Shown piece after piece: positions 11,464 to 57,039 of a DNA stretch of 64,000 nucleotides. Both the position numbers and the translations under genes were made by a program. The stretch is taken from assembly GCF_900603025.1 (NCBI RefSeq), contig NZ_LR026975.1:5205098-5269097 (forward strand), given 5' to 3'. The notes below the pieces were generated by a model. It saw only the letters and a list, made by a program, of their open reading frames with translations, was not told the DNA's origin and did not search any database. Positions within the stretch are counted from its first letter, which is position 1; every line of letters begins with the position of its first letter. The stretch comes from Mycolicibacterium hassiacum DSM 44199 (lineage in GTDB: Bacteria; Actinomycetota; Actinomycetes; Mycobacteriales; Mycobacteriaceae).

Positions 11464-11531
11464 GTCGGCTCAGCCGACGGGGCCTATTTGTCGGCTCAGC
11501 CGACGGGGCCTATTTGTCGGCTCAGCCGACG
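11464..11531. repeat. Tandem 26-bp hairpin repeat, 2.6 copies, over the fadD8 stop
   Basis: Copies lie at 11464-11489, 11490-11515 and 11516-11531 (partial). Each contains the palindrome GTCGGCT-C-AGCCGAC, followed in full copies by GGGGCCTATTT. The third copy contains the fadD8 stop codon (TGA at 11524-11522 on the minus strand), so the array looks like duplication of the end of that gene. Three consecutive hairpins between convergent genes may serve as a terminator. Confidence 0.85.
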
Positions 11532-13129
11532 GCGCGGTCGGCGTCCTTCCAGAACTGGGCGCGCACCGCCTTCTTGTCCGGTTTGCCCAGCGCGGTCACC
11601 GGCAGCGAGTCGACGACGATCACCTGCTTGGGCGCCTGCACCGAACCCTTGCGCTCCTTGACAGCGGCCTGGATCTCGGCGGTGGTCCGCTCGATCGCGT
11701 CCGCGGAGCGGTCGGCGTCCGGGCGCAGCACGATCACCGCGGTCACCGCCTCGCCCCACTTCTCGTCGGGCGTGCCGATCACGCACACCTGGGCGACCGA
11801 AGGATGTTCGGCCACAACGTCTTCCACCTCACGCGGGTACACGTTGAACCCGCCGGTGACGATCATGTCCTTGGTGCGGTCGACGATGTGGTAGAAGCCG
11901 TCCTCGTCCTCGCGGGCCAGGTCGCCGGTGTGCATCCAGCCGTCCCGGAAGGTCTCGGCGGTCTCCTCGGGCCGGTTCCAGTACCCGCCGGACACCAGCG
12001 GACCGGACACGCAGATCTCGCCGACCTCGCCGCGCGGCACCGGCTTGCCCTCGGAGTCCAGCAGCGCCACCCGGGCGAACAGGGTCGGCCGGCCGCAGGA
12101 GGTCAGCCGCTTCTCGTCGTGATCCTTCTTCGACAGGTAGGTGATCACCATCGGCGCCTCGGACTGGCCGTAGTACTGCGCGAAGATCGGCCCGAACCGG
12201 TCGATCGCCTCGCGCAGCCGCACCGGGTTCATCGCCGAGGCCCCGTAGTACACGGTCTCCAGCGAGGACAGGTCGCGGGTGCGCGAATCCGGGTGGTCCA
12301 GCAGCGCGTAGATCATCGACGGCACCAGCATGGTCGCGGTGATCCGCTGCTCCTCGATGGTCCGCAGCACCTCGGCGGGGTCGAACTTGGTCAGCACGAA
12401 CAGCTGACCCCCCTTGATGATGGTCGGCACGAAGAACGCCGCCCCGGCGTGCGACAGCGGCGTGCACATCAGAAACCGCGGGTTCTCCGGCCACTCCCAC
12501 TCGGCCAGCTGGATCGTGGTCATCGTGGTGATCGACTGCACCGTCTGGATGACGCCCTTGGGCTTGCCGGTGGTGCCACCGGTGTAGGCCATCCCGCCGA
12601 TGTGGTCCGGCGGCAGGTCGGCGGCCACCAGCGGTTGCGGCTGGTACTTGGCCGCCTCGGCGGTCAGGTCGACGGCCACATCGGACAGTTCGGGCGGAAC
12701 CGGGCCGATGGTCAGGATCTGCTTGAGGCCCGGCACCTTCTCCAGCAGCCCCCGGGCCCGCTCCACGAACGCCGGGGTCGGGTCGATGATCAGCGTCGAC
12801 ACCCCGGCGTCGTTGAGCACGTAGGCGTGGTCGTCCAGCGAGCCCAGCGGATGCAGCGCGGTGCGGCGGTAGCCCTGGGTCTGGCCGGCGCCGATGATCA
12901 TCAGCACCTCCGGGCGGTTCAGCGACAGCAGCCCGGTGGCGGTGTCGCGGCCCGCGCCGAGCGCCTCGAACGCCTGGATGTACTGGCTGATGCGGTCGGC
13001 GAGCTCACCGCCGGTGAGCGTGGTGTCGCCGAGGAACAGCACCGGCTTGTCCTTGTTGCGCTTGAGCGCCCCGACGGTCAGGTGGCCGGAGTGGATGGGA
13101 TGGCGCAGCAGGGCATCACTCATGGCCAT
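11522..13129 (-). CDS. fadD8: Acyl-CoA synthetase, FadD8-like
   Basis: This 535-residue ANL ligase starts MAMSDALLRHPIHSGHLTVG. Motifs are AYTGGTTGKPKGVIQT (Gly replaces the usual Ser in the SSGTTG loop), YYGQSEAPMVITYLSKKDHD, GWMHTGDLAREDEDGFYHIVDR, TKDMIVTGGFNVYPREVEDVV and the catalytic Lys in TALGKPDKKAVR. Overall form and position between menB and menC match FadD8 (Rv0551c). The reaction is ATP-dependent CoA ligation to a carboxylic acid; the substrate is unknown. A site matching the KstR consensus lies six bases upstream of the start, which suggests sterol-linked control (inference). Confidence 0.88.
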   Translation of the reverse strand: MAMSDALLRHPIHSGHLTVGALKRNKDKPVLFLGDTTLTGGELADRISQYIQAFEALGAGRDTATGLLSLNRPEVLMIIGAGQTQGYRRTALHPLGSLDDHAYVLNDAGVSTLIIDPTPAFVERARGLLEKVPGLKQILTIGPVPPELSDVAVDLTAEAAKYQPQPLVAADLPPDHIGGMAYTGGTTGKPKGVIQTVQSITTMTTIQLAEWEWPENPRFLMCTPLSHAGAAFFVPTIIKGGQLFVLTKFDPAEVLRTIEEQRITATMLVPSMIYALLDHPDSRTRDLSSLETVYYGASAMNPVRLREAIDRFGPIFAQYYGQSEAPMVITYLSKKDHDEKRLTSCGRPTLFARVALLDSEGKPVPRGEVGEICVSGPLVSGGYWNRPEETAETFRDGWMHTGDLAREDEDGFYHIVDRTKDMIVTGGFNVYPREVEDVVAEHPSVAQVCVIGTPDEKWGEAVTAVIVLRPDADRSADAIERTTAEIQAAVKERKGSVQAPKQVIVVDSLPVTALGKPDKKAVRAQFWKDADRAVG

Positions 13130-13134
13130 CAGAC

Positions 13135-13148
13135 TAGAACGTGTTCCA
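13135..13148. promoter_or_regulatory. KstR-type operator match upstream of fadD8
   Basis: TAGAACGTGTTCCA fits the published KstR consensus TnnAACnnGTTnnA at every fixed base. It lies six bases upstream of the fadD8 ATG, where a bound repressor would block transcription. KstR is the TetR-type repressor of cholesterol catabolism in mycobacteria; its action here is inferred from this motif only. Confidence 0.55.
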
Positions 13149-13169
13149 ATTCCAGTCAGCAGGTCGCCC

Positions 13170-14075
13170 TCAGAACCGCCGCGGCAGCCGTCCGAGCTCG
13201 CGTTTCCAGCCGTCGGCCGCGGCCGGATACCATTTCAGCGCGGCCGGCACCGCCGGCCAGGCGGTGCGGATCGCGCGCCGGATCGCCCGGTAGGCCAGCT
13301 CGTCGGCGCGGGTCCAGCGGATCCGGAAGCGTCTGCGCACGATCGGCGGCAGCCCGCCGAAGATCACCAGCCGCATCGGCGGGGCCAGCGCCATCCGTAC
13401 CGGAAGCGTCGGCAGCAGCGCATCGGCCAGCGGACGCAGCCGCGGTGGGCTGGGGAACCACGGCGAGGCGCTCATGTCCGGAATCGCCGGGCGTTCGATG
13501 AACTTGATCAGATAGTCCGCCGCCGGGTTGGGTGCCAGCACCTCCCGGCAGTAGCGGTCGAACTCGCGGTCGAACGCCGCCCGGTCCGGCGGCACCACGC
13601 TCATGGTCATGCCGTAGCGGCGGTACCACTCGCAGCCCTCGGTGTAGAGCCGTTCGCTCTCGTCCGCGGTCAGCCGGTGGTCGTCCCAGTACAGCGCGAT
13701 GCGGTCGACCATCCGCTGGAAGGTGGCGTGCGCCCACCAGTAGGTCTGTGGGTTGAGCGCGTGATACCGGGAGCCGTCCGGCAGTGTGCCCTTGATGTCG
13801 TGGTGGTAGTCGCGGACCCGGTGTCCGGTCTGTTCGGCCTGCGGGCCGTCGTAGACGGTGCCGAGAATCCCCGGCAGCGAACGGAACACCCGGTCGACCG
13901 GGTCGTCGAAGAAATCGGAGTGGTCGATCAGGCCCTGGCCGATCGCCGGGTGCATGGTCTGCAGCAGCCCCGCGGTGCCGCCCTCGAACGCGATCCGCAT
14001 GTCGCCGGCCCAGCGCCACAGCAGCGACGACGGCCCCAGTGCGACGCGTCCGACATCGGTGTGCACCGAGGTCAT
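13170..14075 (-). CDS. Oxygenase MpaB / DUF2236 family protein
   Basis: The ATG at 14075 gives 301 residues starting MTSVHTDVGRVALGPSSLLW. Family features are AFEGGTAGLLQTMHPAIGQGL, HHDIKGTLPDGSRYHALNPQ (conserved His), YWWAHATFQRMVDRIALYW and the C-terminal WKRELGRLPRRF. It is a paralogue-type companion of the gene at 8135. An upstream extension is open to 14174 but does not look conserved; a GTG at 14087 is a second possible start. It is divergent from a broken TetR gene, and an intact palindromic operator lies between them, so it may now be unrepressed. Confidence 0.85.
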   Translation of the reverse strand: MTSVHTDVGRVALGPSSLLWRWAGDMRIAFEGGTAGLLQTMHPAIGQGLIDHSDFFDDPVDRVFRSLPGILGTVYDGPQAEQTGHRVRDYHHDIKGTLPDGSRYHALNPQTYWWAHATFQRMVDRIALYWDDHRLTADESERLYTEGCEWYRRYGMTMSVVPPDRAAFDREFDRYCREVLAPNPAADYLIKFIERPAIPDMSASPWFPSPPRLRPLADALLPTLPVRMALAPPMRLVIFGGLPPIVRRRFRIRWTRADELAYRAIRRAIRTAWPAVPAALKWYPAAADGWKRELGRLPRRF

Positions 14076-14138
14076 CCCGTCCGACACCCCCCGTTCGAGT
14101 CCGCACCCGGGCACCGGTCCGGCCGGTGTGCCACGATG

Positions 14139-14164
14139 GTGATCATGCTCACATGAGCGATCAC
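14139..14164. promoter_or_regulatory. Nested palindrome, candidate TetR operator
   Basis: GTGATC (14139-14144) pairs with GATCAC (14159-14164), and inside it GCTCA (14147-14151) pairs with TGAGC (14154-14158). The element overlaps the ATG of the TetR relic at 14153 and lies about 65 bp upstream of the MpaB-like gene. The site is intact although its presumed regulator is not. Confidence 0.5.
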
Positions 14165-14526
14165 TCGCATTCAATTCGCGTTCGGATGACCGGCCCCGGA
14201 ACCGGCGCCCGGTTGCGGCGGACGCCCCGGCAGCAGCGTTCCCGCGCCATGGTGGAACGCATCCTCGATGCCGGCGAGCGGGTGCTGATCAGCCACGGGT
14301 TCGACGGCGCGTCGACCAACCGCATCGCGGCCGCGGCCGGTATCAGCCGCTGAGCGTGGCGGCGTGGATGCTGGTCCGCATGGTCGAGCACCTGTGCATC
14401 CGCTACATCCTCGACCAGCCGCCGATCGACCGGGAGAGGTTCATCGACGAGACCACGGCGATGGCGCTGAACTACCTGCGGCCGCGGGCCGGGGAACCGA
14501 AAAGCAGTGCCCGGCCCAGGAATTAA
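14153..14526 (+). pseudogene. TetR family regulator with internal deletion
   Basis: From the ATG at 14153 the frame encodes a normal TetR N-terminus (RTPRQQRSRAMVERILDAGE) up to TNRIAAAAGISR and then stops at 14353. Read one base out of frame, the sequence continues immediately with VAAWMLVRMVEHLCIRYILD and then ETTAMALNYLR, a normal TetR C-terminus ending with TAA at 14524-14526. The second half of the HTH and most of the ligand domain, roughly 90 residues or more, are missing. The junction is close to 14350. The DNA-binding domain is incomplete, so the gene is almost certainly non-functional. Confidence 0.85.
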
Positions 14527-14823
14527 CGCCTGCGTCAGTCAGCCGTCGGGGGTGAACGCGAGTTGAAGACGAGTATTTGCTCGTGTCAGCATCGGGCGCA
14601 CTCATTGGTCCGTGAATTCGCGAACTCGGCACCCTCGGCCACAAGTTAATGTGCATACTCAGTGGACGAAGTGACATGTCGAGCGTCACGCGCGAGCGAG
14701 TAGTGTGATGGGCTGCACTCGATACGCGAAAAACCAAGCGAATATGCCGCAGCGATCGCGTGGGGAAGATAGCCGGGCGATGGCTGCGGCCAACGGACGA
14801 AAGCGCTAAGTGAATGGCTGTTC
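14527..14823. other. Non-coding leader of mce operon I
   Basis: No gene is seen in this stretch of about 300 bp. It is less GC-rich than its surroundings, which suits a promoter region for the operon starting at 14824. A small inverted repeat (ACGAG-TATTTG-CTCGT, about 14568-14583) is present. No -10/-35 pair or known operator could be assigned with confidence. Confidence 0.5.
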
Positions 14824-15666
14824 ATGGCGACGACGCGTAGCGACAGCGTCGAGGTCATCGGTGCGTGGGCCGGCGGCTACCTCCGGCGCCACCCACTGGC
14901 GGCCCTCGCGACGGTCGGGGAGCAGTTCGTGCTCGGGGTGCGCACCCTGCAGTACCTGTTCATCGACCTGTTCACCGGGCGTTTCCAGTGGTGGGAGTTC
15001 ATCCGCCAGGCCGCGTTCATGGCCGGCACCGCGGTGCTGCCGACGGTCCTGGTGGCGCTGCCGATCGGCGTGACGCTGTCGATTCAGTTCGCCCTGCTGG
15101 CCGGGCAGGTGGGCGCCACCTCGCTGGCCGGCGCGGCCAGTGGCCTGGCGGTGATCCGGCAGGCCGCCTCGTTGACCGCGGCGATCCTGATGGCCGCCGC
15201 CGTCGGTTCGGCGATCACCGCCGACCTGGGCTCGCGCAAGATGCGCGAGGAGACCGACGCCATGGAGGTGATGGGCGTCTCGGTGATCCGGCGCCTGGTG
15301 GTGCCGCGGTTCGTGGCGGCGATCATGATCGGCGTCGCACTCACCGGCGTGGTCTGCTTCGTCGGGTTCCTGGCCAGCTACCTGTTCAACGTGTACTTCC
15401 AGAACGGCGCCCCGGGCAGCTTCGTCGCCACGTTCGCGTCGTTCACCACCACCGGCGACATGGTCGTCGCGCTGATCAAGGCGGTGGTGTTCGGCGCGAT
15501 CGTCGCCGTGGTGTCGTGTCAGAAGGGGCTGTCGACCCAGGGCGGGCCCACCGGCGTGGCGAACTCGGTGAACGCCGCGGTGGTCGAGTCGATCCTGGTG
15601 CTGATGATCGTCAACGTCGCGATCAGCCAGCTCTACATCATGTTGTTCCCGCGGGTGGGGCTGTAG
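14824..15666 (+). CDS. YrbE-type MlaE permease, first of mce operon I
   Basis: This 280-residue membrane protein is the first permease subunit of an Mce lipid-import ABC-type complex. The MlaE/YrbE family pattern is clear: IRQAAFMAGTAVLPTVLVALPIG, QFALLAGQVGATSLAGAASG, DLGSRKMREETDAMEVMG and NSVNAAVVESILVLMIVNV. It pairs with the next gene to form the inner-membrane channel. The ATG at 14824 is used; a GTG at 14812 is also in frame. It is followed without a gap by yrbEB. Confidence 0.92.
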   Translation: MATTRSDSVEVIGAWAGGYLRRHPLAALATVGEQFVLGVRTLQYLFIDLFTGRFQWWEFIRQAAFMAGTAVLPTVLVALPIGVTLSIQFALLAGQVGATSLAGAASGLAVIRQAASLTAAILMAAAVGSAITADLGSRKMREETDAMEVMGVSVIRRLVVPRFVAAIMIGVALTGVVCFVGFLASYLFNVYFQNGAPGSFVATFASFTTTGDMVVALIKAVVFGAIVAVVSCQKGLSTQGGPTGVANSVNAAVVESILVLMIVNVAISQLYIMLFPRVGL

Positions 15667-16521
15667 ATGGCCGCGCCGTTCGTTCCGCCGCTGCTGGCGC
15701 CGTTCGTCCGGGCCTACAACCGGACGACGCCGCCGATCGCCCGGCTCGGCCACATGCTGGTGTTCTTCGTCCGGGCGTTGGTGGCGGTGCCGTTGGTGCT
15801 GCGCCACTATCGCGCGGAGTTCGTCCGGCTGCTGTCCGATATCGCTTGGGGCAACGGATCCCTGGTGGTAGGCGGCGGTACCGCCGGGGTGGCGGTGGTG
15901 CTGGGGGTGACCGTCGGCGCGCTGGTCGGCATCGAGGGCTACAACTTCCTGGACCTGCTCGGCCTGGGCCCGGCGACCGGCATCATCTCGTCGCTGGTGA
16001 ACACCCGGGAGTTGGCGCCGATCGCGTTGTCGCTGGCGTTCGCCACCCAGGCCGGCTGCCGGTTCACCGCGCAGCTCGGCTCGATGCGCATCGCCGAGGA
16101 GATCGACGCGCTGGAATCGCTGGCGATCCGGCCGATCCCGTATCTGGTGACCACCCGGCTGATGGCGTCGGTGATCGCGGTGATCCCGCTCTACGTGATG
16201 TGCCTGGCGGTCAGCTATCTGACCACCCAGCTCGTGGTGCGGATCATCAGCGGCGGGGCCACCGGTTCGTATCTGCACTACTTCAACCTGATGCTGTCCG
16301 GCCAGGACATCCTCTACTCGCTGCTGAAAGCCGTTGTCTTCGTGTGGATCGCGACGACGATCCAGTGCTACTACGGCTTCTACGCCAGCGGCGGTCCCGA
16401 GGGGGTCGGGGTGGCGGCCGGTCACGCCATGCGGGCCAGCATCACCGTCGTGATCATCGTCAACATGCTGCTGACCATGGCGTTGTGGAACGTCGACGCC
16501 GGGGCGAGGTTCGGGGGCTAG
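15667..16521 (+). CDS. YrbE-type MlaE permease, second of mce operon I
   Basis: The ATG follows the previous stop directly. The 284-residue protein has the YrbEB pattern: SDIAWGNGSLVVGGGTAGVAVV, LVNTRELAPIALSLAFATQAG, CRFTAQLGSMRIAEEIDALE, SLAIRPIPYLVTTRLMASVI and CYYGFYASGGPEGVGVAAGH. It is the partner permease subunit in the plasma membrane. The ATPase (Mkl/MceG) that powers these systems is not encoded in this window, as usual in mycobacteria. The next gene, mceA, starts immediately after its stop. Confidence 0.92.
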   Translation: MAAPFVPPLLAPFVRAYNRTTPPIARLGHMLVFFVRALVAVPLVLRHYRAEFVRLLSDIAWGNGSLVVGGGTAGVAVVLGVTVGALVGIEGYNFLDLLGLGPATGIISSLVNTRELAPIALSLAFATQAGCRFTAQLGSMRIAEEIDALESLAIRPIPYLVTTRLMASVIAVIPLYVMCLAVSYLTTQLVVRIISGGATGSYLHYFNLMLSGQDILYSLLKAVVFVWIATTIQCYYGFYASGGPEGVGVAAGHAMRASITVVIIVNMLLTMALWNVDAGARFGG

Positions 16522-21293: not shown

Positions 21294-22578
21294 TGAGCGG
21301 GTCGCGGTTTCGACGGGCGGTGCCGGCCCTGGTGGCGGTCGGCTGCCTGGTCACCGGTTGTGCCACCAACGGTCTGGCGAGCCTGCCGCTGCCCGCTCCC
21401 GGGGTCGGCTCGGGCGGCTACCGGCTGACCGCCGAGTTCACCAACCCGCTGAACCTGCCGGCGAACGCCAAGGTCAAGCTGGCGGGCGCGGACGTCGGCC
21501 AGGTCGAGTCGATGGTGGCGCACAACTATCTCGCGGTGACCACGCTGCGCATCATGGACGGGGTGCAGCTGCCGGTCGGCAGCACCGCCGAGTTGCGCTC
21601 GGCCACCCGCGCGGCGACGTGTTCGTGGCGCTCAAGCCGCCCGCCGACGTCGCGCCGGGCACGCCGATGCTGCGCGACGGCGACGTCATCGGCAAGGACC
21701 ACACCAAGGCGGCGGCCACCGTGGAGTCGGTGCTGGCGTCGGCGGCGATCCTGGTCAACGGCGGCGCGGTGCGGAACTTCACCAACATCGTCAACGGGTT
21801 GGGTAAGGCCACCGGCGACGAGGGCAAGGCATTCGGCCACCTGATCCGCAAGACCAACGCCACGCTGGCGAAACTCAACGCGCGCTCGGCGGAGATCTCC
21901 ACCGCGATGACCGAGACGTCGCGGCTGACCCGCGAGATCGCCGCCAAGAACGACGTGCTCGCCGACGTGATGGCGCAGGCGCGCCCGGCCACCGACACGC
22001 TTGCCGCGCACGCCACCGAGGTCGCCGATCTCATCGAGCGGTTCGGCGCGATCTCCGAGCTGGCCCGCAGGTTCCCGTCGATCGCCGGCAACGACACCAG
22101 TGGGCGCAGCGTGATCGCCGACGCCAACACCATCGCCAAGGCCTGGAACGATGTCGCGCTGGAGCCGAACGCGACACTGTATTCGCTCAACCGGCTGATT
22201 CCGCCGTTCATCAAGACGATGAGCGGCGGTGCGGTCGCGCTGGACGCCAGCGTCGACCGGTTGGTGCTCGGCCACATCCCCGACATCGGCTTCGCCGGTG
22301 ATCCGGGCCTGCACGGGCCGAAGTGGAGCGACTGGCATCACCTGGTCGGCACCCTGCAGTACACGCTGTTCCGGTTGCAGGAGCGCGTCGTCGGCCGGGG
22401 CCCGAATGTGCCGCAGCTGCCGGTGATTCCGAGCCCCACCGAACCGGGCGAGATCATCCCGGCGCCGGCGGCCGCGCCAACCCCGGCGCCCGACGCGCCG
22501 CACCGCCCGGCGCCCGACGCGCCGCACGGCCCGGCGCCGGCCGCGCCCGGCCCGGCGCCCGAAGAGGGGCCGCGATGA
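21293..22578 (+). pseudogene. Mce lipoprotein MceE, operon I, one-base frameshift
   Basis: The gene starts ATG at 21293 with a lipoprotein signal (LVAVGCLVTGCATNG; Cys at about residue 21) and an MCE domain (FTNPLNLPANAKVKLAGADV then GQVESMVAHNYLAVTTLRI). At ELRSAT the expected PxGDVFVAL is reached only by changing frame: the text GCCACCCGCGCGGCGAC lacks one C in the run at 21606-21608. The second frame then continues intact from GDVFVALKPPADVAPGTPM to a Pro/Ala-rich C-terminus ending at 22578. Uncorrected, translation ends at 21844. It is either a recent loss or a sequencing error in a C-run; the rest of the reading frame is undamaged. Confidence 0.85.
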
Positions 22579-23791: not shown

Positions 23792-23808
23792 CGGATCGGA
23801 GGATCTCG

Positions 23809-31682: not shown

Positions 31683-33320
31683 GTGAATCCCTCGACTGCG
31701 CAGGCCCGGGTCGTCGTCGACGAGCTCATTCGCGGCGGCGTGCGCGATGTGGTGTTGTGTCCTGGGTCACGCAACGCACCGTTGGCGTTCGCGCTGCAGG
31801 ACGCCGACCGGGCCGGTCGTATCCGGTTGCACGTCCGCATCGACGAACGCACCGCGGGATTCCTGGCGATCGGGCTGGCCATCGCCGAGCAGGCCCCGGT
31901 GTGTGTGGCGATGACATCGGGTACCGCGGTGGCCAATCTCGGTCCGGCCGTCGTGGAGGCGAACTACGCGCGGGTGCCGCTGATCGTGCTGTCCGCCAAC
32001 CGCCCGTACGAGCTGCTGGGCACCGGAGCCAACCAGACCTTCGAACAGCTCGGCTACTTCGGCACCCAGGTGCGTGCCACCATCAGCCTGGGGCTGGCGC
32101 CGGACATCAACCGCGCGGCCCCGGGTGAGCTGGAGAAGCTCAACGCCCAGTGGCGGTCGGCGACCTGCCGAGTTCTGGTGGCCGCCACCGGATCTCGCAC
32201 CGCCAACGCCGGACCGGTGCAGTTCGACATCCCGCTGCGCGAACCGCTGGTGCCCGATCCGGACGACAGCGGACCGTACTGCCCCGAGGGGCGGCCGGAC
32301 GGCAGACCGTGGACGGTCACCCCGCCGGTGACGTTCGATCAGCCGCTGGAGATCGACCTGACGCCGGACACCGTCGTCATCGCCGGGCACGGCGCGGGGG
32401 CGCACCCGAACCTGGCGCATCTGCCCACCGTCGCCGAGCCCACCGCGCCGGCGCCGCAGAACCCGCTGCATCCGTTCGCGCTGCGGCTGCTGCGCCCGCA
32501 GCAGGTGATCATGCTGGGCCGCCCGACACTGCACCGGCCGGTGATGTCGTTGCTGGCCGATCCCGCGGTGCCGGTCTATGCGCTGACGACGGGGCCGCGC
32601 TGGCCCGACGTCTCGGGCAACTCACAGGCCACCGGCACCCGGGCGATCACCACCGGGGAGCCGAATCCGGCCTGGTTGAAGCGGTGTGCGGAGGTGCACC
32701 GGCACGCCATCGAGGCGGTGCACAGTCAGCTGGCGGCGCATCCGCTCAAGACCGGTCTGCACGTGGCGGCCGCGGTGGCCCAGGCGGTGCGGCCCGGTGA
32801 TCAGCTGGTGCTCGGGGCGTCCAACCCGGTGCGGGACGTGGCGCTGGTGGGGCTGGACGCCCACGGGATCAAGGTGCGGTCCAACCGCGGGGTGGCCGGG
32901 ATCGACGGGACGGTGTCGACCGCGATCGGGGCGGCGCTGGCACATGAGGGCCGCACCATCGCGCTGCTGGGCGACCTGACATTCGTGCACGACAGCTCCG
33001 GGTTGCTGATCGGGCCGACCGAGCCGACGCCGCGCAACCTGACCATCGTGGTGTCCAACGACAACGGTGGGGGCATCTTCGAACTGCTCGAGCAGGGCGA
33101 TCCGCGGTTCTCCGACGTGTCGTCGCGGATCTTCGGCACCCCGCACGATGTGGATGTCGGCGCGTTGTGCCGGGCCTATCACGTCGAGAGCCGCCAGATC
33201 GAGGTCGATGATCTGGTGGCGGCACTCGACGAACCGTTCGAGGGCATGCGGGTGTTGGAGGTGAAAACCGACCGGTCGTCGTTGCGGGCGTTGCACGCGT
33301 CGATCAAGGCGGCCCTGTGA
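31683..33320 (+). CDS. menD: SEPHCHC synthase (MenD)
   Basis: MenD is the ThDP-dependent enzyme that condenses isochorismate with 2-oxoglutarate, the first committed step of menaquinone synthesis. The 545-residue protein (554 in M. tuberculosis) shows [40 protein letters not shown] (the ThDP Glu), [37 protein letters not shown] and [16 protein letters not shown] (cofactor and metal binding). The GTG at 31683 is two bases after the bpoC stop. Its TGA (33318-33320) overlaps a GTG that begins a 27-bp tandem repeat array. Confidence 0.95.
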
Positions 33321-33505
33321 GCGCAGCGAACGATCGAGGCCCTGTGAGCGGAGCGAACGAATCGGGCCCTGTGAGCGCAGCGAACGATCGAGGCCCTGTG
33401 AGCGGAGCGAACGAATCGGGTCCTGTGAGCGCAGCGAACGAATCGGGTCCTGTGAGCGCAGCGAACGATCGAGGCCCTGTGAGCGCAGCGAACGCATCGG
33501 GGTTC
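33317..33505 (+). repeat. 27-bp tandem repeat, seven copies, in frame with GTG starts
   Basis: Seven consecutive 27-base units start at 33317, 33344, 33371, 33398, 33425, 33452 and 33479. Each begins GTGAGCGCAGCGAAC or GTGAGCGGAGCGAAC and most end with CCCT or TCCT. Types ending NDRGP and NESGP alternate at first (A-B-A-B-B-A-variant). The last bases of menD before its stop (GGCCCT) match the end of the unit, so the array looks like duplication of the menD/next-gene junction. Each copy carries an in-frame GTG start. Confidence 0.95.
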
Positions 33506-34075
33506 GCCGGGCGGATCCGGCGGGCGGGTGTGTTGCTGCGCCGTTTTCTGCCCCGGCTGGCCCCCGACCCCGCCGAGACCCGCAGCGAGCGGATCTTTCG
33601 CCGCATCCGCATCGTGATCGTGCTGGCCGCCTGCCTGGTCACGCTGCAGGCGGTGCTCATGGTCGCGGGTGCCTGGCGCAACGACCGGCAGATCGAACGC
33701 CACCTCGGCGTCGCCGAGGCCGAGGTGCTCAGCGCCGGCCCGCGCCGCTCGACAATCGAGTTCGTCACCCCCGACCGCGTCACCTACCGTCCCGAGCTCG
33801 GCGTGCTCTACCCCTCGGAGCTGGAGAACGGGATGCGCATCTACGTCGAGTACGACGTGAACAACCCGAATCTGGTGCGGGTGCGCGACCGAAACGCCTC
33901 CCTGGCGATCATCCCCGCGGCATCGATCGCGGTGGTGGGCTGGCTGGTCGCCGGTGGCGCGCTGGGTGCGGTGGCTCTGGTGCAGCGCGGGCTGGCGCGC
34001 CGCGCCGAGAACCGGCGAACCCGGGACCGGCAGGCCCGCAACGGGGCGCCCTCGGGCCTGGGCGATCCTGTTTAG
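33317..34075 (+). CDS. Membrane protein, Rv0556-like, with repeat-extended N-terminus
   Basis: The longest reading gives 252 residues. The first 63 are the repeated [11 protein letters not shown] peptide, and the rest is a two-helix membrane protein: a helix at about residues 96-118 ([20 protein letters not shown]), an extracytoplasmic beta-rich part ([20 protein letters not shown]) and a second helix near 195-217. The family gene after menD in M. tuberculosis (Rv0556) is about 171 residues. The last repeat GTG (33479) would give 198 residues and is closest to that. Any of the seven GTG codons could be the start; the first overlaps the menD stop. Function unknown. Confidence 0.8.
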
Positions 34076-42197: not shown

Positions 42198-42758
42198 GTG
42201 GGCGTGTTGACCAGATTGCTCGCCGGGGTGATCGGAGTCGCCGGGGCGGCGCTGTTCGGTGGCGCCGCCGTCGCGGGTGCCCAGCCGGACGGGGCCCAGC
42301 CGGCGCAGCCGGACCCGCCGCCGGTGTCGCACAGCGTGAACGTGTTCGCGCCGGTGTCGCTGCCCGAGTACGCGGTGATGGACGGCCAGTGGTACGCGTT
42401 CGCCACCCCCGACGGGCTGACCTGCGTGTTGCAGCGCTCCGGCAGCTACGGCTGTAGCGGGCCGCTGCCGGGGGCGCCCAACGGCGCCAACCTGGTCAGC
42501 GGCGGGCCGGGGGTGCCCGGGTTCGCCCGGACCGACGGCGATGTGTTCGCGGTGGTCGGCGAGGCCAAACTGCTGCCGCCGGGTTCGCGGATCAGCTATC
42601 AGACCGTCAGCTGCGGCACCGACGGCACGGTGACCACCTGCGAGGACAGCCGCATCCAGTCCGGGTTCGTGATCAGCCCGGCGGGCAGCTACATCATCAA
42701 CGGCGGCCGCAACCCGCTGCTGGACCGGCCCGAGGGCACCAACCCGTTCTTCAACTAG
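42198..42758 (+). CDS. Secreted protein of unknown function
   Basis: The 186-residue reading has a signal peptide (LLAGVIGVAGAALFGGAAVA) and a Pro-rich start of the mature region (DGAQPAQPDPPPVSHSV). The rest contains four Cys residues in LTCVLQRSGSYGCSGPLPGA and YQTVSCGTDGTVTTCEDSRI, and ends EGTNPFFN. Start options are GTG 42198 or GTG 42204. The last codons and TAG form the first unit of a four-copy 17-bp tandem repeat. It is inserted between htpX and gpdA1, which are adjacent in M. tuberculosis. No family is recognised with certainty. Confidence 0.75.
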   Translation: MGVLTRLLAGVIGVAGAALFGGAAVAGAQPDGAQPAQPDPPPVSHSVNVFAPVSLPEYAVMDGQWYAFATPDGLTCVLQRSGSYGCSGPLPGAPNGANLVSGGPGVPGFARTDGDVFAVVGEAKLLPPGSRISYQTVSCGTDGTVTTCEDSRIQSGFVISPAGSYIINGGRNPLLDRPEGTNPFFN

Positions 42759-42810
42759 GCCCGGTTTTCAAATAGGCGCGTTCTTCAGCCAGGCTCGTCT
42801 TTCAGCCGGC
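42743..42810. repeat. 17-bp imperfect tandem repeat, four copies, over a stop codon
   Basis: Units at 42743-42759 (CCCGTTCTTCAACTAGG), 42760-42776 (CCCGGTTTTCAAATAGG), 42777-42793 (CGCGTTCTTCAGCCAGG) and 42794-42810 (CTCGTCTTTCAGCCGGC) degrade progressively. The first contains the stop codon TAG of the secreted protein gene. The array fills the gap to the convergent gpdA1 gene. Confidence 0.85.
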
Positions 42811-42815
42811 GCGGG

Positions 42816-43835: not shown

Positions 43836-43910
43836 GACGTCAGCGTAAGACCGTTGCCCGGCCCGCAGTGGCGTTTGCCGCGACCGGCGCATGCCGCGGC
43901 GGATTCGCCG

Positions 43911-45044: not shown

Positions 45045-45106
45045 GCGAACTCCTTCGCGGACGTTGTCGGTGGCGTCAAAGGATTGCAATAACCCCTCGA
45101 AACATA

Positions 45107-45122
45107 CAGGATACTGATTAAG
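45107..45122. promoter_or_regulatory. Motif shared with other promoters of the lipid island
   Basis: CAGGATACTGATTAAG lies in the 110-bp gap between the divergent FadE genes. A very similar AAGGATACTTATTTAG lies at 61738-61753, and a looser relative lies at 58519-58538. GATACT could also be the -10 element of the plus-strand FadE-mce operon. Confidence 0.4.
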
Positions 45123-45154
45123 CTGAATCCGTCAGTCGATCGGACGGAGGCAAT

Positions 45155-46330: not shown

Positions 46331-46365
46331 GGGAGGCGCGACGTCGCACGGGAAGCCGAGGGTCG

Positions 46366-47214: not shown

Positions 47215-47219
47215 CAGCG

Positions 47220-48077: not shown

Positions 48078-48078
48078 G

Positions 48079-50513: not shown

Positions 50514-50517
50514 CACG

Positions 50518-51558
50518 ATGAACACGCTCAATCGGATTCGCGCCCGGGCCTCGATCACCTCGGTAAGCAAGCTGCGGCTGGGCATCATCGCGGTGACGGT
50601 CATCGCGGTCACCCTCGCCGGCGCGCTGGGCCTGGGGCGGCTGGGCATCGGCAAGGAAATCTATATCGCCGAGTTCGCCCAGTCCGCGGGCCTGAGCACC
50701 GGCGACCGGGTGACCGTGGCGGGGGTGCAGGTCGGCCGGGTCAGGGGCATGCGGCTGGCCGGCGACCACGTGGCGGTCACCCTCGAGATCGACGACGACC
50801 TGACGCTGGGCACCGCCACCAAGGCGGCCATCAAGCTCACCACGCTGCTCGGCGCGCGCTACGTCGAACTCCGCCCGGCCGGCTCCGAGCCGCTGCGCGA
50901 TCGACGGATTCCCCTGTCCAACACCGAGGTTCCCTATGATCTGCAGTCCGCGCTGCAGGACGCCACGGTCACCTTCGAGGCGGTGGACGCCAGACGGATC
51001 GCCGAGTCGATGACCACGCTGTCGGCGCAGCTGCAGCAGGCCCCCGAGGTGCTGCCGCAGGCGCTGGACAACATCGAGCACCTGTCTAAGGTGATCGCGG
51101 GCCGCCGCGACCAGATCTACGACCTGCTGCGCCGCACCGAGCAGGTGGCCGAACTGCTCGGCGACCAGCAGCGCAGCCTCGGGCTGCTGCTGCACCAGAG
51201 CCACGAGGTGCTCAGCGACCTGGTAGCGCGAAAAGAACTGGTGGTCCGGTTGATCGACGCCACCACCCGGCTGGTCAACCAGCTGCGGCCGGTGCTCATC
51301 GAGGACCGCGGCCGCATCGACGAGCTGCTGGCCAACCTGGACGGCATGCTCTCGGCGGTGCACCGCAACGACGCGCTGTTGCGCAACACCCTGCAGATCC
51401 TGCCGGTCCCGGTCCGCAATTTCGCCAACGCGACCGGCAACGGCAACGAGTTCGACTTCACCTCGACCGGGGGCACGATGATCGACTCGTTCGTCTGCGC
51501 GATCAGCGGACGCGCCAAACAGTTCAACCTGCCGCCGTACTTCGGGGACTGCCGATGA
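50518..51558 (+). CDS. MCE family protein MceC, operon II
   Basis: The 346-residue protein has a basic N-terminus, a membrane anchor (IIAVTVIAVTLAGALGLGRL) and MCE domain AEFAQSAGLSTGDRVTVAGV then QVGRVRGMRLAGDHVAVTL. The C-terminal block EFDFTSTGGTMIDSFVCAIS then GRAKQFNLPPYFGDCR matches the operon I MceC. It overlaps mceD by four bases. Nothing unusual is seen. Confidence 0.9.
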   Translation: MNTLNRIRARASITSVSKLRLGIIAVTVIAVTLAGALGLGRLGIGKEIYIAEFAQSAGLSTGDRVTVAGVQVGRVRGMRLAGDHVAVTLEIDDDLTLGTATKAAIKLTTLLGARYVELRPAGSEPLRDRRIPLSNTEVPYDLQSALQDATVTFEAVDARRIAESMTTLSAQLQQAPEVLPQALDNIEHLSKVIAGRRDQIYDLLRRTEQVAELLGDQQRSLGLLLHQSHEVLSDLVARKELVVRLIDATTRLVNQLRPVLIEDRGRIDELLANLDGMLSAVHRNDALLRNTLQILPVPVRNFANATGNGNEFDFTSTGGTMIDSFVCAISGRAKQFNLPPYFGDCR

Positions 51559-52658
51559 CCCTGCGCGCGCTGCTGAAACAGATCGTCGTCGCGGCGATCG
51601 CCGGTCTCGCGTGCGGCGGCTGCGCGGGCGGGCCGATCGACGGCAAGCCGATGACCGTCGTCGCGCTGTTCGACAGCGCCAGCGGGCTCTACGAGGGCAA
51701 CGCGGTCGCGATCCTCGGCATGCCGGTCGGCAAGGTCACCCGGATCGAACCGAGCGGCGCCGAGGTGCGGGTGACGATGCGCATCGACCCCGGCGTGCAG
51801 ATTCCCGCCGACGTTGCGGCCGTCACCGTGTCCACCTCGATCCTCACCGACCGGCACGTCGAGCTCACCCCGGTGTACCGCGGCGGCCCGACGCTCGCCG
51901 ACGGCGCGGTGCTGGGACTCGACCGCACCCGCACCCCGGTGGAGTTCGACCGGGTGCTGGCGATGATCGACGAGCTGGCGGTGCAACTCGGCGGCGACGG
52001 CAACGGGTCCGGGCCGGTGGCCGAGCTGCTGTCGGTGAGCGCGGCGCTGACCGAAGGCAGGGGCGGCGAGATCCGTTCGGCGCTCGGCGAACTGTCCAAG
52101 GCGCTGCGGATGAGCCAGGAGAACGGGGCCCCCACCGGGGATGCGATCACCGCGATCGTCACCAACCTGGACCGGCTGACCGCCGCGGCCGCGGAGAACG
52201 ACCGGACCATCCGCGAGGTGGGCTCCGCGGTGCGGCAGCTGTCGGCGGTGCTGGCGGCCGAGCGGCTGGGCAGTGGGTCCACCGGGGCGCAGATCAACCA
52301 GATCCTCTCCGCGACCGCCGATCTGCTCGAGGCCAACCGCGAGCATCTGAAACAGACCGCGACGGGCATGGAGTCGGTGACCAAGGCCATCGCCGACTAC
52401 CGGCGCGAGGTCGCCGAAACCCTCGATATCGCCCCGATGCTGCTCGACAACGTCTACAACATGATCGATCACGAGAAGGACGCCATCCGGGCGCATCCGC
52501 TGCTGGACAAGGTGGAGCTCAACGGGATGCTGACCAAGGAGTTCTGCAACCTGCTCGGCATGAAACAGCTGGGCTGCAGCACCGGAACCATCCAGGACTA
52601 CGGGCCGGACTTCGGCCTGACCGACATGCTCGAGGGATTGGCGGGACTGCACCGATGA
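51555..52658 (+). CDS. MCE family protein MceD, operon II
   Basis: The protein has 367 residues. The MCE domain reads ALFDSASGLYEGNAVAILGM then PVGKVTRIEPSGAEVRVTM, with VSTSILTDRHVELTPVYRGG and MKQLGCSTGTIQDYGPDFGL as MceD markers. Its N-terminus (TLRALLKQIVVAAIAGLACG then GCAGGPIDGKPM) is short and carries two Cys residues, unlike the Cys-free anchor of the operon I MceD. This could be a signal peptide with an atypical lipid attachment site rather than a plain anchor. Confidence 0.9.
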   Translation: MTLRALLKQIVVAAIAGLACGGCAGGPIDGKPMTVVALFDSASGLYEGNAVAILGMPVGKVTRIEPSGAEVRVTMRIDPGVQIPADVAAVTVSTSILTDRHVELTPVYRGGPTLADGAVLGLDRTRTPVEFDRVLAMIDELAVQLGGDGNGSGPVAELLSVSAALTEGRGGEIRSALGELSKALRMSQENGAPTGDAITAIVTNLDRLTAAAAENDRTIREVGSAVRQLSAVLAAERLGSGSTGAQINQILSATADLLEANREHLKQTATGMESVTKAIADYRREVAETLDIAPMLLDNVYNMIDHEKDAIRAHPLLDKVELNGMLTKEFCNLLGMKQLGCSTGTIQDYGPDFGLTDMLEGLAGLHR

Positions 52659-53950
52659 ACCAGCCCGGAAAGTCCAAAAAGCAGCCGGAACCGGTGCGCC
52701 GCCGGCCCCTGCGCGACAGACCCCTGCGCGCACTGGCCGCGCTCGGCATGGTCGGGGTGCTGACCGGCTGTTCGGTGGGTTTGGAGCAGCTGCCGCTGCC
52801 CGCACCGTCGGTCGGCACCGACACCTACCGGCTCACCGCCACCTTCGCCAACGCGCTGAACCTGCCCGCCAAGGCCAAGGTCCGGCTCTCCGGCGCCGAC
52901 GTCGGCGAGGTGGAGTCGATGACCGCCCGCGACTACACCGCGGTGGTCACCATGCGGATCGCCGCCGGTGTGCAGATCCCCGCCGGCACCCGGGCCGAAC
53001 TACGTTCGGCCACCCCGCTGGGCGACGTGTTCGTGGCACTGACCCCGCCGCCCGCCGGGTCCGGGCCGCTGACCCCGCTGCCGCCGGGCGCCGAACTGCC
53101 CGCCGATTCCACCGCCTCCGCGGCCACCGTGGAGGATGTGCTGTCCACCGCGGCGCTGCTGGTCAACGGGGGAGCGATCCGCAACCTGACCCGCATCGTC
53201 AACGGTATGGGCCGGGTGGTCGGCGGGAAGGGGGAGGACCTCAACCGGTTCGTCGACGACTCCACCCGGCTGGTCCGCAGCCTGTCGGCGCGCTCGGAGG
53301 CGATCAAGGCCGCGCTGACCCGGACCGGGGATCTGGCCGCACTGCTGGCCGAGCGGCAGCGCTCGATCGACGCCGCGCTGGCGGCCGCGGCCCCGGCGTT
53401 GGGAGCCGTCGGCGACAACACCGACCGGATCGTCGAGCTCAGCGCGCAGCTGAACCGAATCGCGCTGCAACTGGCCAAACTTCCGTCGGTGCGCGGTGAG
53501 GAGTCGCGCAGCATGCTGGCCGACATCAACACCATCTCCCACGGCCTCAACGAGGCGTCCCTGGCGCCGGGGGCATCGCTGCACAACTTCAACCGGATGT
53601 TCGGCCCGATCCTCAAAACCACCAACTCGACCGCGGCTAACGTCGAGATCGACCTCGCCGACCTGGCCGTCGGTGCGTTCGCCGACCCGTACCATCCCGC
53701 CGATCCGGGCAGCCGCGGCATGCCGACCCGGGAGGACTTCCGCAACCTGGTCGGCAGCATCTCCTACGAGCTGCTCATGGTGCGCAACAAGTTCTGGGGC
53801 CCGCCCACCCCGCCGCCGGGTAATGTGCCGCCGCCCAACCTGATCGGGCCCGCACCCGACAAACTGACACCCGCCCCGCCGCCGCCCGGGCTCAAGCCGC
53901 CGCCGCCCACCGCGCCGCCGGGCGCGTCGCTGGAGGAACCGCCGCGATGA
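52655..53950 (+). CDS. Mce lipoprotein MceE (LprK-like), operon II
   Basis: This 431-residue lipoprotein has a basic start, then ALAALGMVGVLTGCSVGLEQ with a good lipobox (LTGC). The MCE domain reads ATFANALNLPAKAKVRLSGA then DVGEVESMTARDYTAVVTM. ELRSATPLGDVFVALTPPPA is intact at the point where the operon I copy is frameshifted. The C-terminus is Pro-rich. MceE anchors the tunnel at one end through its lipid. It overlaps mceD and mceF by four bases each. Confidence 0.92.
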   Translation: MNQPGKSKKQPEPVRRRPLRDRPLRALAALGMVGVLTGCSVGLEQLPLPAPSVGTDTYRLTATFANALNLPAKAKVRLSGADVGEVESMTARDYTAVVTMRIAAGVQIPAGTRAELRSATPLGDVFVALTPPPAGSGPLTPLPPGAELPADSTASAATVEDVLSTAALLVNGGAIRNLTRIVNGMGRVVGGKGEDLNRFVDDSTRLVRSLSARSEAIKAALTRTGDLAALLAERQRSIDAALAAAAPALGAVGDNTDRIVELSAQLNRIALQLAKLPSVRGEESRSMLADINTISHGLNEASLAPGASLHNFNRMFGPILKTTNSTAANVEIDLADLAVGAFADPYHPADPGSRGMPTREDFRNLVGSISYELLMVRNKFWGPPTPPPGNVPPPNLIGPAPDKLTPAPPPPGLKPPPPTAPPGASLEEPPR

Positions 53951-55197
53951 GGTGGTTGGTGAGCGCGGTGCGGTGGGCCCGGGAGCGGCGGCTGGGCCTG
54001 TCGGCCGCCGCGATCGCGGTGATGTTCGTGGTCGGGGTGGTCTACCTGCTGTTCGGCACGCTGCGGATCAACCCGGTCGCGCGGGACACCATCGTGCGGG
54101 TCCACCTCGACGAGACCGGCGGCCTGCTGCCGGATCAGGATGTGACGCTGCGCGGGGTTCCGGTGGGCCGGGTGCGCTCGATCGAGCTGACCGAGTCCGG
54201 CGCGGTGGCGATCGCGGCGATCCGTCCCGGGGTGCGCATCCCGGCCGACGCCGAGGCCCGGGTGTCGGCACTGTCGCCGGCCGGCGAGCAGTACCTGGAT
54301 TTCCGCGCCGACCACAACGACGGGCCCTACCTCGCCGGCGGGGACGAGATCGACAGCAGCCGCACCAGGATCCCGGTCAGCCTCGCCAAACTGCTCGGCG
54401 ACCTGGACGGGACGCTCGAGCAGGTCGACACCGCGCAGCTGTCGGCGGTGCTCGACGAGCTGCGGGTCGGCCCGGAGGGCCCGGAGAAGCTCGCCGCGAT
54501 CCTCGACGGCGGGGCGTTTCTGCTCTCGACGCTGGACTCGGTGCTGCCGCAGACCGTCCGGCTGCTCCGCAACAGCAAGGTGGTGCTCGGGTCGGTGCGC
54601 GACGTCAGCCCCGGATTAGCTTCCACCGCAACTGATCTGGCGACCATCATGAACGGCGCCGAGCAGATGACCGGCGGGTACGCCACGCTGCTGGACCGCG
54701 CTCCGGAGGTGTACTCCGGAATCGACGCGCTGATCGCCGACAACTCGCCGACCATGGTGGCGCTGCTCGGCAACCTCACCACGGTGTCGCAGATGATCCA
54801 CAAGCGGGTGCCGGCACTCGAGGAGTTCTTCTTCCCGCAGTACCGCGGCTCGGCGCTCGACGCGGTCGCCAGCACCTTCCGTGACGGCGGGGTCTGGGGC
54901 GCGGTGAGCCTGTACTCCCGCTACGGCTGCGACTACAACCTGCCGCAGGCCCCGCCGACGCTGACCGATTTTCCCGAGCCCTACCTGTACACCTACTGCC
55001 CGAACCCCGACCCGAAGTATCTGGTGCGCGGGGCCCGCAACGCACCACACCCGCCCGGGGAGGAAGGTCTGGCGGGCCCGCCGCCGGGGGCACACCCGCT
55101 GCAGCGCTCCGATCCGACGCCGGTCGGGCGCTACACCATCCCCACCCCGTTCGGCGGCCCGATCCTGCCGCTGCCCCCGCCGCCGAGCGGCCCGTGA
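53947..55197 (+). CDS. MCE family protein MceF, operon II
   Basis: The 416-residue subunit has a membrane anchor (AAAIAVMFVVGVVYLLFGTL) and MCE domain VRVHLDETGGLLPDQDVTLR then GVPVGRVRSIELTESGAVA. After LIADNSPTMVALLGNLTTVS it continues with about 120 residues (RVPALEEFFFPQYRGSALDA, then the Cys-containing SRYGCDYNLPQ and YLYTYCPNPD) that are missing from the operon I copy. It is the last tunnel subunit and is followed after 21 bp by mas. Confidence 0.9.
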   Translation: MRWLVSAVRWARERRLGLSAAAIAVMFVVGVVYLLFGTLRINPVARDTIVRVHLDETGGLLPDQDVTLRGVPVGRVRSIELTESGAVAIAAIRPGVRIPADAEARVSALSPAGEQYLDFRADHNDGPYLAGGDEIDSSRTRIPVSLAKLLGDLDGTLEQVDTAQLSAVLDELRVGPEGPEKLAAILDGGAFLLSTLDSVLPQTVRLLRNSKVVLGSVRDVSPGLASTATDLATIMNGAEQMTGGYATLLDRAPEVYSGIDALIADNSPTMVALLGNLTTVSQMIHKRVPALEEFFFPQYRGSALDAVASTFRDGGVWGAVSLYSRYGCDYNLPQAPPTLTDFPEPYLYTYCPNPDPKYLVRGARNAPHPPGEEGLAGPPPGAHPLQRSDPTPVGRYTIPTPFGGPILPLPPPPSGP

Positions 55198-55218
55198 GCA
55201 GAGAGGAAGTCGACGACG

Positions 55219-55800
55219 ATGACCAGCTGTGAACTCGCCCAGGACCCCGACACCGCGCCCGGCACCGTGGATCGCGACGAACCCGCGCCCGACGCCGTGC
55301 CGCGGCGGTCCCGGCGGTGGCCCGGCCGGCGCGCGGTGGGACTGGCGGCGGGCGCGGTGGTGACGGCGGGACTGATCGCCACCATTACGGTGCTGGCCAG
55401 TGACCTGTACGAGCGGCGCGCCGTGGAGCACGCCGAACAGCAGGCGCTCGCCGCCGCCCAGCAGTACGCGGCGATCCTCACCAGCGTGGACAGCGCCCAC
55501 CTCGACGAGAACTTCGAGGCCGTACTCGACGGTGCCACCGGCGAATTCAAGAAGATGTACAGCGAGTCGAGCAACCACCTCAAGCAGTTGCTCATCGACA
55601 ACGACGCCAAGGCGGACGGCAAGGTCGTCGCCGCCGGTATCAAGTCGGCGAGCCGGGACCGGGTGGAGGTGATGCTGTTCGTCGATCAGGAGGTCAGCAA
55701 CAAACACCTCCCCGAACCGCGATTGGACCGCAGCCGGATCATCATGACCATGAACAAGGTCGACGGCCGTTGGCTGGCCGGCGACGTGGTGGTGCCGTGA
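55219..55800 (+). CDS. Mce-associated membrane protein (mas)
   Basis: This 193-residue protein has an acidic cytosolic start, a membrane helix at about residues 37-59 (AVGLAAGAVVTAGLIATITV) and an extracytoplasmic NTF2-like domain: LTSVDSAHLDENFEAVLDGA, TGEFKKMYSESSNHLKQLLI and TMNKVDGRWLAGDVVVP. Mas proteins accompany mce operons and are thought to stabilise the complex. It supplies the intact reference for the truncated relic at 23456-23791. Its TGA overlaps the GTG of the next gene. Confidence 0.88.
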   Translation: MTSCELAQDPDTAPGTVDRDEPAPDAVPRRSRRWPGRRAVGLAAGAVVTAGLIATITVLASDLYERRAVEHAEQQALAAAQQYAAILTSVDSAHLDENFEAVLDGATGEFKKMYSESSNHLKQLLIDNDAKADGKVVAAGIKSASRDRVEVMLFVDQEVSNKHLPEPRLDRSRIIMTMNKVDGRWLAGDVVVP

Positions 55801-56543
55801 TCCGGCCCGCCGCCCTGCTGACCGGGCTGGTGCTGGTCGCGGCGACCGTCTCCGGGACGCTCCCGGTGCCCGGCCTGCTGACCACCGCCGCCGCCGACCC
55901 GGTGTCCAACGGCGTCACCTACACCGTCGTTCCCGACGTGCGCGCCGGGGTGGCGCCGAACGGCCTGGGGGACTGGGTGGTCGAGTACGAGAAGCTCGCC
56001 GGCGGGGATCCCGCGATCACCGATGCGATCAACCGGATCCTCGACGACGAGGCCAACGGCCAGGTGTGGCTCTACGCCGCCACCGCGAGCAAGACCTCAC
56101 CGTGGACGTTCCGCACCCGGGGTCGGCTGCAGTTCCGGCCGCTCACCATCGCCGAGCTGTGGCAGGGGCAGTACAACGCGACCGAATTGCCCAACATGCC
56201 GGTCGACACCGTCGCCACCCGGGTGTTCGGTGCGCGCAGCGGCGCCCAGATCGTCTGGAAGAACCTGTTCGTCGACGAGCAGGCGGGTCTGAAACGGCTG
56301 GGCGAGTTGACCAAACAGACCCTGCCGCAGGCGTATCCGACCCCGCCGCTGGGCGGATGGGGTGAGTACTACACGGGCTGGGCCCCGGTGGAGCGCAACT
56401 TCCGGTTCTGGATCCCCGTCGACGGCGGCATCCAGCTGTTCTTCCCGGAAGGGCAGTTCGGCCGCGAGGTGCGCACGATCACCATCCCGTGGTCGGCGCT
56501 GCGCGATCTGGTCGCGCCGGATTTCCAGCCGATCACCAGTTGA
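55797..56543 (+). CDS. Secreted RsiV/DUF3298-like Mce-associated protein
   Basis: The GTG at 55797 overlaps the mas stop and gives 248 residues with a signal peptide (LLTGLVLVAATVSGTLPVPG). The body has YTVVPDVRAGVAPNGLGDWV, IVWKNLFVDEQAGLKRLGEL and FWIPVDGGIQLFFPEGQFGR, the DUF3298-type beta-rich fold. It occupies the same place as the gene at 23809 in operon I, though identity looks low. Coupling to mas supports a role in Mce function. Its 3' end overlaps the convergent DUF2599 gene by 11 bases. Confidence 0.8.
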   Translation: MIRPAALLTGLVLVAATVSGTLPVPGLLTTAAADPVSNGVTYTVVPDVRAGVAPNGLGDWVVEYEKLAGGDPAITDAINRILDDEANGQVWLYAATASKTSPWTFRTRGRLQFRPLTIAELWQGQYNATELPNMPVDTVATRVFGARSGAQIVWKNLFVDEQAGLKRLGELTKQTLPQAYPTPPLGGWGEYYTGWAPVERNFRFWIPVDGGIQLFFPEGQFGREVRTITIPWSALRDLVAPDFQPITS

Positions 56544-57039
56544 GCACGTCGTCGGGGCCACCCGGATTGCATCCGGAGTTCTGCATGATGATGCTCGACA
56601 CCACCGGCCGCCACGGCTCCAGGTTCCAGGTGCCCACCTTGCCCGGGTTGGTGAACGTCGACAGCTGCCAGTAGCAGAAGAACTGGTTCTGCATGGACAG
56701 CGTGTTGGCCTCCGGGGCGTGCTCGAGCAGTTCGGCCCATGCGTCGTAGCTCTGGGCGCCGTTGGTGAAGATCCCCGACGCCGCCCACCCCCACGCGGTC
56801 GGATAGACGCGCAGCGTCGCGCGATCGCCGTGGTACACCCACTCGGTGCGTTCGATGTAGTTCGGTGCATCCGGTGGCCGCGGCGGATACGGCGACGGCG
56901 GCGGCACGACGGGGTCGACCGGTTCGGCCCGCACGGGGGCCGCGAGCGGACCACCGGCCACCCCGGACAGCACCGCGACCAGCGCCCAGGCCGCGATCCG
57001 ACCGGCCCCTAACCGACCGGCCCCTAACCGACCGGCCAT
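56533..57039 (-). CDS. Secreted DUF2599-like protein
   Basis: The ATG at 57039 gives 168 residues. The signal peptide region is preceded by a repeated GAGRL stretch from a 15-bp tandem repeat. The mature protein reads PNYIERTEWVYHGDRATLRV, YPTAWGWAASGIFTNGAQSY then DAWAELLEHAPEANTLSMQN and ends NSGCNPGGPDDVLNW, typical of DUF2599 (Cys pair in FFCYWQL and SGCNPG). Such secreted proteins are common in mycobacteria and of unknown function. The start overlaps the end of the upstream ALDH gene by 16 bases. Confidence 0.8.
   Translation of the reverse strand: MAGRLGAGRLGAGRIAAWALVAVLSGVAGGPLAAPVRAEPVDPVVPPPSPYPPRPPDAPNYIERTEWVYHGDRATLRVYPTAWGWAASGIFTNGAQSYDAWAELLEHAPEANTLSMQNQFFCYWQLSTFTNPGKVGTWNLEPWRPVVSSIIMQNSGCNPGGPDDVLNW
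56993..57037. repeat. 15-bp tandem repeat, 2.6 copies, over the ALDH stop codon
   Basis: On the minus strand GGCCGGTCGGTTAGG occurs at 57037-57023 and 57022-57008, and its first nine bases occur again from 57007. The first copy contains the ALDH stop codon TAG (57026-57024). The same array encodes the GAGRL repeat at the start of the DUF2599 protein. Confidence 0.85.

Follow-up and report, generated by a model that had tools for sequence, protein, structure and literature searches.

The window analysed here is the final 64 kb (64,000 nucleotides) of the 5.27-Mb single-contig genome of Mycolicibacterium hassiacum DSM 44199, and its subject is a set of four tandem repeat arrays lying at gene ends, the largest of them at the end of menD. 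The arrays had been reported in an original prediction made from the sequence alone, and all four were recovered with Tandem Repeats Finder (TRF). As had been claimed, each contains a stop codon, namely that of fadD8, of menD, of a 186-amino-acid (aa) open reading frame (ORF) and of an aldehyde dehydrogenase (ALDH) gene. The predicted coordinates lie near the TRF ranges, except that the ALDH array had been started 5 bp early, at 56993. The array at menD and that at ALDH extend into the reading frame that follows (33317-34075 and the called ORF 56533-57039, respectively). The statement that no comparable array lies inside gene bodies is not borne out, as two further arrays are wholly intragenic (Table 1, last rows). 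Genes were called with our own codon-usage script and not taken from a published annotation. Scans of the window with Rfam (gathering threshold) and for tRNAs gave no match.

Table 1. Arrays and associated genes in the window
Feature	Position	Strand	Details and basis
menD array, 27 bp x7.1, 90% matches	33311..33501	+	GTGA overlap; TRF, sequence, core matches
menD, NCBIfam TIGR00173	31683..33320	+	stop TGA 33318-33320; gene call, NCBIfam
Gene after menD	33317..34075	+	no Pfam or NCBIfam family; frame from GTG 33317 = 252 aa
fadD8 array, 26 bp x2.7, 100% matches	11464..11532	.	convergent gap 11418-11521; TRF
AMP-binding enzyme (fadD8 in the original prediction)	11522..13129	-	stop 11522-11524; Pfam, gene call
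Degenerate 17-bp array	42743..42813	.	TRF 42743-42787 (78%, score 62) and 42745-42813 (73%, score 54)
ALDH array, 15 bp x2.7, 100% matches	56998..57037	.	holds ALDH stop; TRF
Aldehyde dehydrogenase, PF00171	57024..58496	-	stop 57024-57026; Pfam, gene call
24-bp x3.5 array, score 120	22482..22562	+	wholly inside called gene 21619-22578; TRF
30-bp x2.4 array, score 79	53012..53082	+	wholly inside called gene 52655-53950; TRF

The menD array and its dispersed core

The original prediction overlooked that the array at menD probably represents one form of a stop/start element with dispersed copies. GTGA plus the core TGAGCGNAGCGAACGA is repeated in each unit of the array, with one mismatch in the last. 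The downstream frame read from GTG 33317 opens with seven 9-residue repeats, and the array holds seven GTGs, each of which is a possible start of the gene after menD.

The core was searched for in 148 genomes of the genus with the reversed core as control. It occurs at 33 places in 16 genomes, against a single place for the control. Twenty-one core loci were examined, the window's own menD copy not included and three found by a looser pattern, and in 18 of them the TGA of the core falls exactly at a called stop. The 18 stop-anchored loci are located at three unrelated junctions: eight at menD, six at acyl-CoA dehydrogenase/MaoC and four at acyl-CoA carboxylase beta/epsilon. Many core loci contain a further copy at a fixed spacing of 26-27 bp. 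A longer 20-mer, searched without the demand for a preceding TG, is found at 18 places in 10 of the 148 genomes (control 0), all of them already core places, and in one genome (G097) it stands at two unrelated junctions. The units of M. hassiacum do not match this longer pattern; besides the array at menD, the genome has a single unit at the junction of the carboxylase genes (L221). A text search of the available literature with six core strings gave no paper.

The overlap at the menD junction is itself general: it has the form NTGA in all 106 readable cases (of 108 loci, including the window and its copy L061), with or without the core, the first base being G in 99, A in 4 and T in 3. In a menD-centred sample, comprising the best 80 of 352 menD-encoding loci (1.588 Mb), TRF detected core arrays at menD in 11 loci, with units of 26 or 27 bp (L090, L093, L095, L096, L102, L107, L108, L126, L135, L156 and L160). 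By eye, a complete unit followed by a partial one was recognised in L091, L094, L101, L104 and L105. The copy number of the menD unit differs between species. Outside the 80, L069 (genome G008) has a different array, 18 bp x3.3, at the menD junction, beginning 46 nt before the stop.

Translation path from stop to next gene

We then scored the path from the menD stop to the next gene, permitting restart solely at NTGA or TGATG overlaps and defining the core loosely. The path is open in 19 of 19 core loci, in 14 of them in frame and in 5 through 9-codon mini-ORFs (two in L095, one each in L101, L104 and L105, and four in L107). It is also open in 58 of 60 core-free loci; 2 of the 81 loci lie at contig edges. 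The downstream frame has 252 codons in M. hassiacum compared with 162-189 in 58 core-free loci, and all 18 stop-anchored core loci, at whichever junction, lead to an ORF of at least 60 codons. In the core loci searched, no unit of this core had a length of 25 or 28 bp. Units of 3n+1 length are so far lacking in the core family only; a general ban on such units was rejected, since 25- and 16-bp units exist at co-directional stops of this genome (L013, L054).

A second family, with the core ATGAGCGCTNRCGCGAAGA, consists of 32-bp units forming 11-codon mini-ORFs. Its search pattern RTGAGCGCTNRCGCGAAGA matches in 13 of 25 genomes, with up to 55 matches in one genome and none for the control, and the units are mostly spaced 32-33 bp apart. 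Among 23 distinct loci the first matched unit lies at most 2 nt from a called stop in 14 and does not in 9. Eleven of the 14 stop-anchored loci relay to the next gene via mini-ORFs, mostly of 11 codons and at one locus four in succession, and three break; in these 11 the family follows the same relay logic as the menD core. Five matches are present in M. hassiacum, at three loci, one of which is the array L031:4338. A separate 26-bp x4.5 array of this genome (L024:13241-13355), at a co-directional stop, can likewise be read as a relay, in which 9-codon mini-ORFs joined by TTGA lead into a called gene.

The arrays at fadD8, 42743 and ALDH

Read in the sense direction, the fadD8 unit is a hairpin, GTCGGC-TGA-GCCGAC, with the stop codon as its loop, together with an 11-nt linker. 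The RNA of this array folds better than all 200 shuffles (z -5.8), while the other three arrays have z scores of +1.2, -0.2 and -1.0. The 26-bp array is found in none of 13 fadD8 relatives, in which the stop occupies the same alignment place or one within a few residues; other weak repeats lie nearby in L339 and L347. The array may also be a multiplied terminator-like hairpin. Palindromic GC-rich sequences recur, by eye, downstream of fadD8 in L338, L341 and L347. Ahead of the fadD8 array, in the gap separating the two convergent genes, the window also contains an inverted repeat, AAACTACGGTT...AACCGTAGTTT, at 11402-11453 with a fold z of -2.4.

The degenerate 17-bp array is weak on its own. 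It crosses the stop (42756-42758, + strand) of the 186-aa ORF at the convergent gap 42759-42815, and it is absent from the four orthologues examined. The ALDH array lies in the first codons of the ORF 56533-57039 (- strand), whose start precedes the ALDH stop, and is absent from the two relatives examined (82% and 59%). These two arrays and that of fadD8 look like recent and local duplications, and all three spare the upstream protein because a tandem duplication that spans a stop leaves this protein as it is.

Tandem arrays and stop codons in M. hassiacum and its relatives

The association of arrays with stops was evaluated in a 1.264-Mb sample of the genome (61 stretches, that is, 60 and the window, with 1197 called genes). 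Of the 185 arrays with a TRF score of at least 50, 26 lie over a stop where 11.2 are expected (P 0.0005), and 6 over a start where 11.9 are expected. The main tests were confined to arrays with periods of 10-60 that touch non-coding DNA, dropping longer and shorter periods as well as arrays that are at least 95% coding, so that the ALDH array is not among the stop arrays counted. Here 22 of 44 arrays lie on a stop against 10.8 expected (P 0.0002). The excess persists when the window is left out (19/41 against 10.0, P 0.001), when start-proximal placements are excluded (20/35 against 9.8) and at a score of at least 80 (12/20 against 6.5, P 0.0096). When CRISPR-like (clustered regularly interspaced short palindromic repeats) and other long-period arrays are included at this score, the non-coding arrays show no excess (13/31 against 11.9, P 0.40). 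The genome holds two CRISPR-like arrays, L022:13042-19674 and L040:17659-19995, with repeats of about 36 bp and a period of about 72, and also a wholly called-coding 108-bp x2.7 array that spans a called stop and start (L034:7330-7619).

All 14 arrays in convergent gaps lie on a stop where 7.1 are expected, a figure softened by short gaps and by gaps that the arrays themselves lengthen; in co-directional gaps placement by array length reveals no excess (8/13 against 7.1, P 0.41). For gaps of at least 60 bp, arrays occur at 4.2-4.8% of convergent and at 2.3% of co-directional stops; on these figures collision between convergent genes, named in the original prediction, is no more than a possible cause. 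The period is divisible by 3 in 113 of 125 wholly coding arrays, and the 22 stop arrays divide into 6, 7 and 9 among the period classes modulo 3. A stem of at least 5 bp is present in 7 of the 22 stop-array units (2.6 expected). Stems over stops in general are not enriched (27 of 1138; four sets of control positions gave 30-36 of 1124-1145), and among the four arrays a strong fold was obtained for that of fadD8 only, so that hairpin-driven slippage, proposed in the original prediction, does not hold as a general cause.

We also considered whether the stop-array units form one dispersed repeat. Shared 12- and 14-mers in the 1.264-Mb sample gave no support to this idea, a comparison that did not take in the lone core unit at G000:529842, located outside that sample; a 14-mer common to two arrays has one further place in the genome. 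A 13-mer shared at stops, TAGACCGTCGCGC, was discarded as representing mostly one orthologous junction.

Four relatives (1.2 Mb), in which G002, a genome with long gaps, contributes 47 of 62 arrays, show no excess at stops by array-length placement (11/62 against 11.7 expected) or in convergent gaps (4/9 against 4.5); placement by unit length gives 5.2 expected for the same 11 (P 0.014). In the 80 menD loci, 17 of 50 arrays lie on a stop; placement by array length predicts 13.3 (P 0.14) and placement by unit length 7.2 (P 0.0008), and convergent gaps again give no excess (3/7 against 3.5). The count falls to 7 of 40 once the ten arrays at the menD junction are set aside. Counted per stop codon, the frequency is 22/1149 in M. 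hassiacum, against 11/2280 in the relatives without G002 (Fisher 0.0001) and 18/2642 with it (P 0.0014). A clear excess at stops was thus seen in this genome only, which has more such arrays than the sampled relatives. The enrichment test suggested with the original prediction holds in this genome, and a general rule of gene ends is not supported because the excess is seen neither in the four relatives nor in the menD-region loci. Tolerance at gene ends, one of the explanations offered, is supported by the avoidance of starts, by the mostly 3n periods of coding arrays beside the mixed periods of stop arrays, and by the logic that a stop-spanning duplication does not alter the upstream protein, but stops here exceed the expectation from simple tolerance.

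Discussion

The four arrays probably do not represent one phenomenon: the menD array appears to be an amplified junction element and the other three local duplications. The single shared cause that had been implied finds no support. Gene-end repeats within one genome, in other words, need not have a common origin.

For the menD array we propose that it is a tandemly amplified, 26-27 bp mycobacterial junction element situated at GTGA overlaps of co-directional genes. Each unit brings its own NTGA. A 27-bp unit adds nine in-frame codons to the next gene, and a 26-bp unit forms a mini-ORF of nine codons, its TGA overlapping the GTG that follows; a stopping and restarting ribosome could in this way be handed along the units to the next gene. 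Such an element could therefore arise and multiply without cutting translational coupling. It may be, or may once have been, mobile. What we observed of it is a common sequence, three junctions, a constant phase and an open path in the scored core loci. A broader view, which we advance tentatively and would not yet favour over its negation, is that families of minimal, mobile-like relay elements of 26-33 bp settle at NTGA overlaps and multiply in tandem under a frame rule, and that restart of the next gene, or the length of its tail, could be adjusted through the number of copies with coupling intact. The frame rule, put forward with the same reserve as part of this whole, would be that units of 3n extend the tail and units of 3n-1 form chains of 9- or 11-codon mini-ORFs.

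Several observations weigh against the junction element and its relay. Our own gene caller places the start of the gene downstream of menD in the last unit, at its GTG (33479). Three of the 21 core loci (L172, L182 and L218) lie off any called stop, as do all 10 two-mismatch core matches in this genome, and 132 of the 148 genomes lack the core. The tail of the unit is similar to the local end of menD, and this fits a local duplication too. The 58 of 60 core-free loci that also keep the path make an open path alone weak evidence, and single relays are common by chance (46 relay and 109 break in this genome).

Among the alternatives, the one that survives best, though we consider it unlikely, is that all four arrays are ordinary slippage minisatellites kept where proteins are unharmed, the menD core being purely local. 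The avoidance of starts, the 3n periods of coding arrays, the lack of three of the four arrays in the orthologues examined and the inclusion of the local menD tail in the menD unit all accord with it; it does not account for three unrelated junctions having a core of 16 to 20 nt in common, and in one phase, nor for stops being hit above placement expectation in this genome. It is more doubtful still that a mutational mechanism at stops or convergent ends (collision, an uncoupled transcript or a hairpin) makes the arrays: the convergent-gap arrays, all on stops, the higher frequency per stop codon than in the relatives without G002 and the surplus of stems in stop-array units speak for it, but the relatives lack the excess, as do co-directional gaps by array length, and hairpins are not enriched at stops. 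Equally improbable is selection of the core as a coding or translation-start signal (VS-x-AN-D/E after GTG) with an independent origin at each junction, which agrees with the core encoding the first codons after the stop-overlapping GTG in the 18 anchored loci but not with a match reaching 20 nt or with the additional copy that many loci have at a constant distance of 26-27 bp.

If the junction element is real, the natural series at menD, from no core through a single unit with a partial second one to as many as seven units, would provide a ready test of restart against relay number, and annotators would have reason to anticipate repeat tails where coupled genes begin.

Comparison with known systems

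The fadD8 array, alone of the four, resembles an intrinsic terminator in being a GC-rich hairpin at a convergent gene end that folds better than shuffles. It differs in that the stop codon of fadD8 forms the loop, and that AAATAGG, with no T-run, follows in the fadD8 direction. All four arrays share tandem copies with variable number tandem repeats (VNTRs) or minisatellites, from which the menD core is set apart by its dispersal over three junctions. A further parallel is with mycobacterial interspersed repetitive units (MIRUs). A 2025 review describes these as apparently mobile units at start codons, each with an ORF inside it that is coupled at -4 nt (PMC12548453), and their length is given as 40-100 bp (PMC2734929). 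Both systems comprise repeats at stop/start junctions of coupled genes, with tandem copies. The core lies at a start codon overlapping the upstream stop (-4 nt) in 18 of 21 core loci. A coupled internal ORF is present in the 26-bp units (5/5 loci) and in 11 of 14 stop-anchored loci of the second family; the 27-bp units instead extend the next protein in frame. As to dispersal, the core stands at three junctions, and the second family matches in 13 of 25 genomes. Both families appear to work like MIRUs, a likeness drawn from description, and we do not claim that they are MIRUs. Their units, of 26-27 bp and about 32 bp, are shorter than the 40-100 bp given for MIRUs; if the proposed reading is true, MIRU-like elements can be as short as a single mini-ORF.

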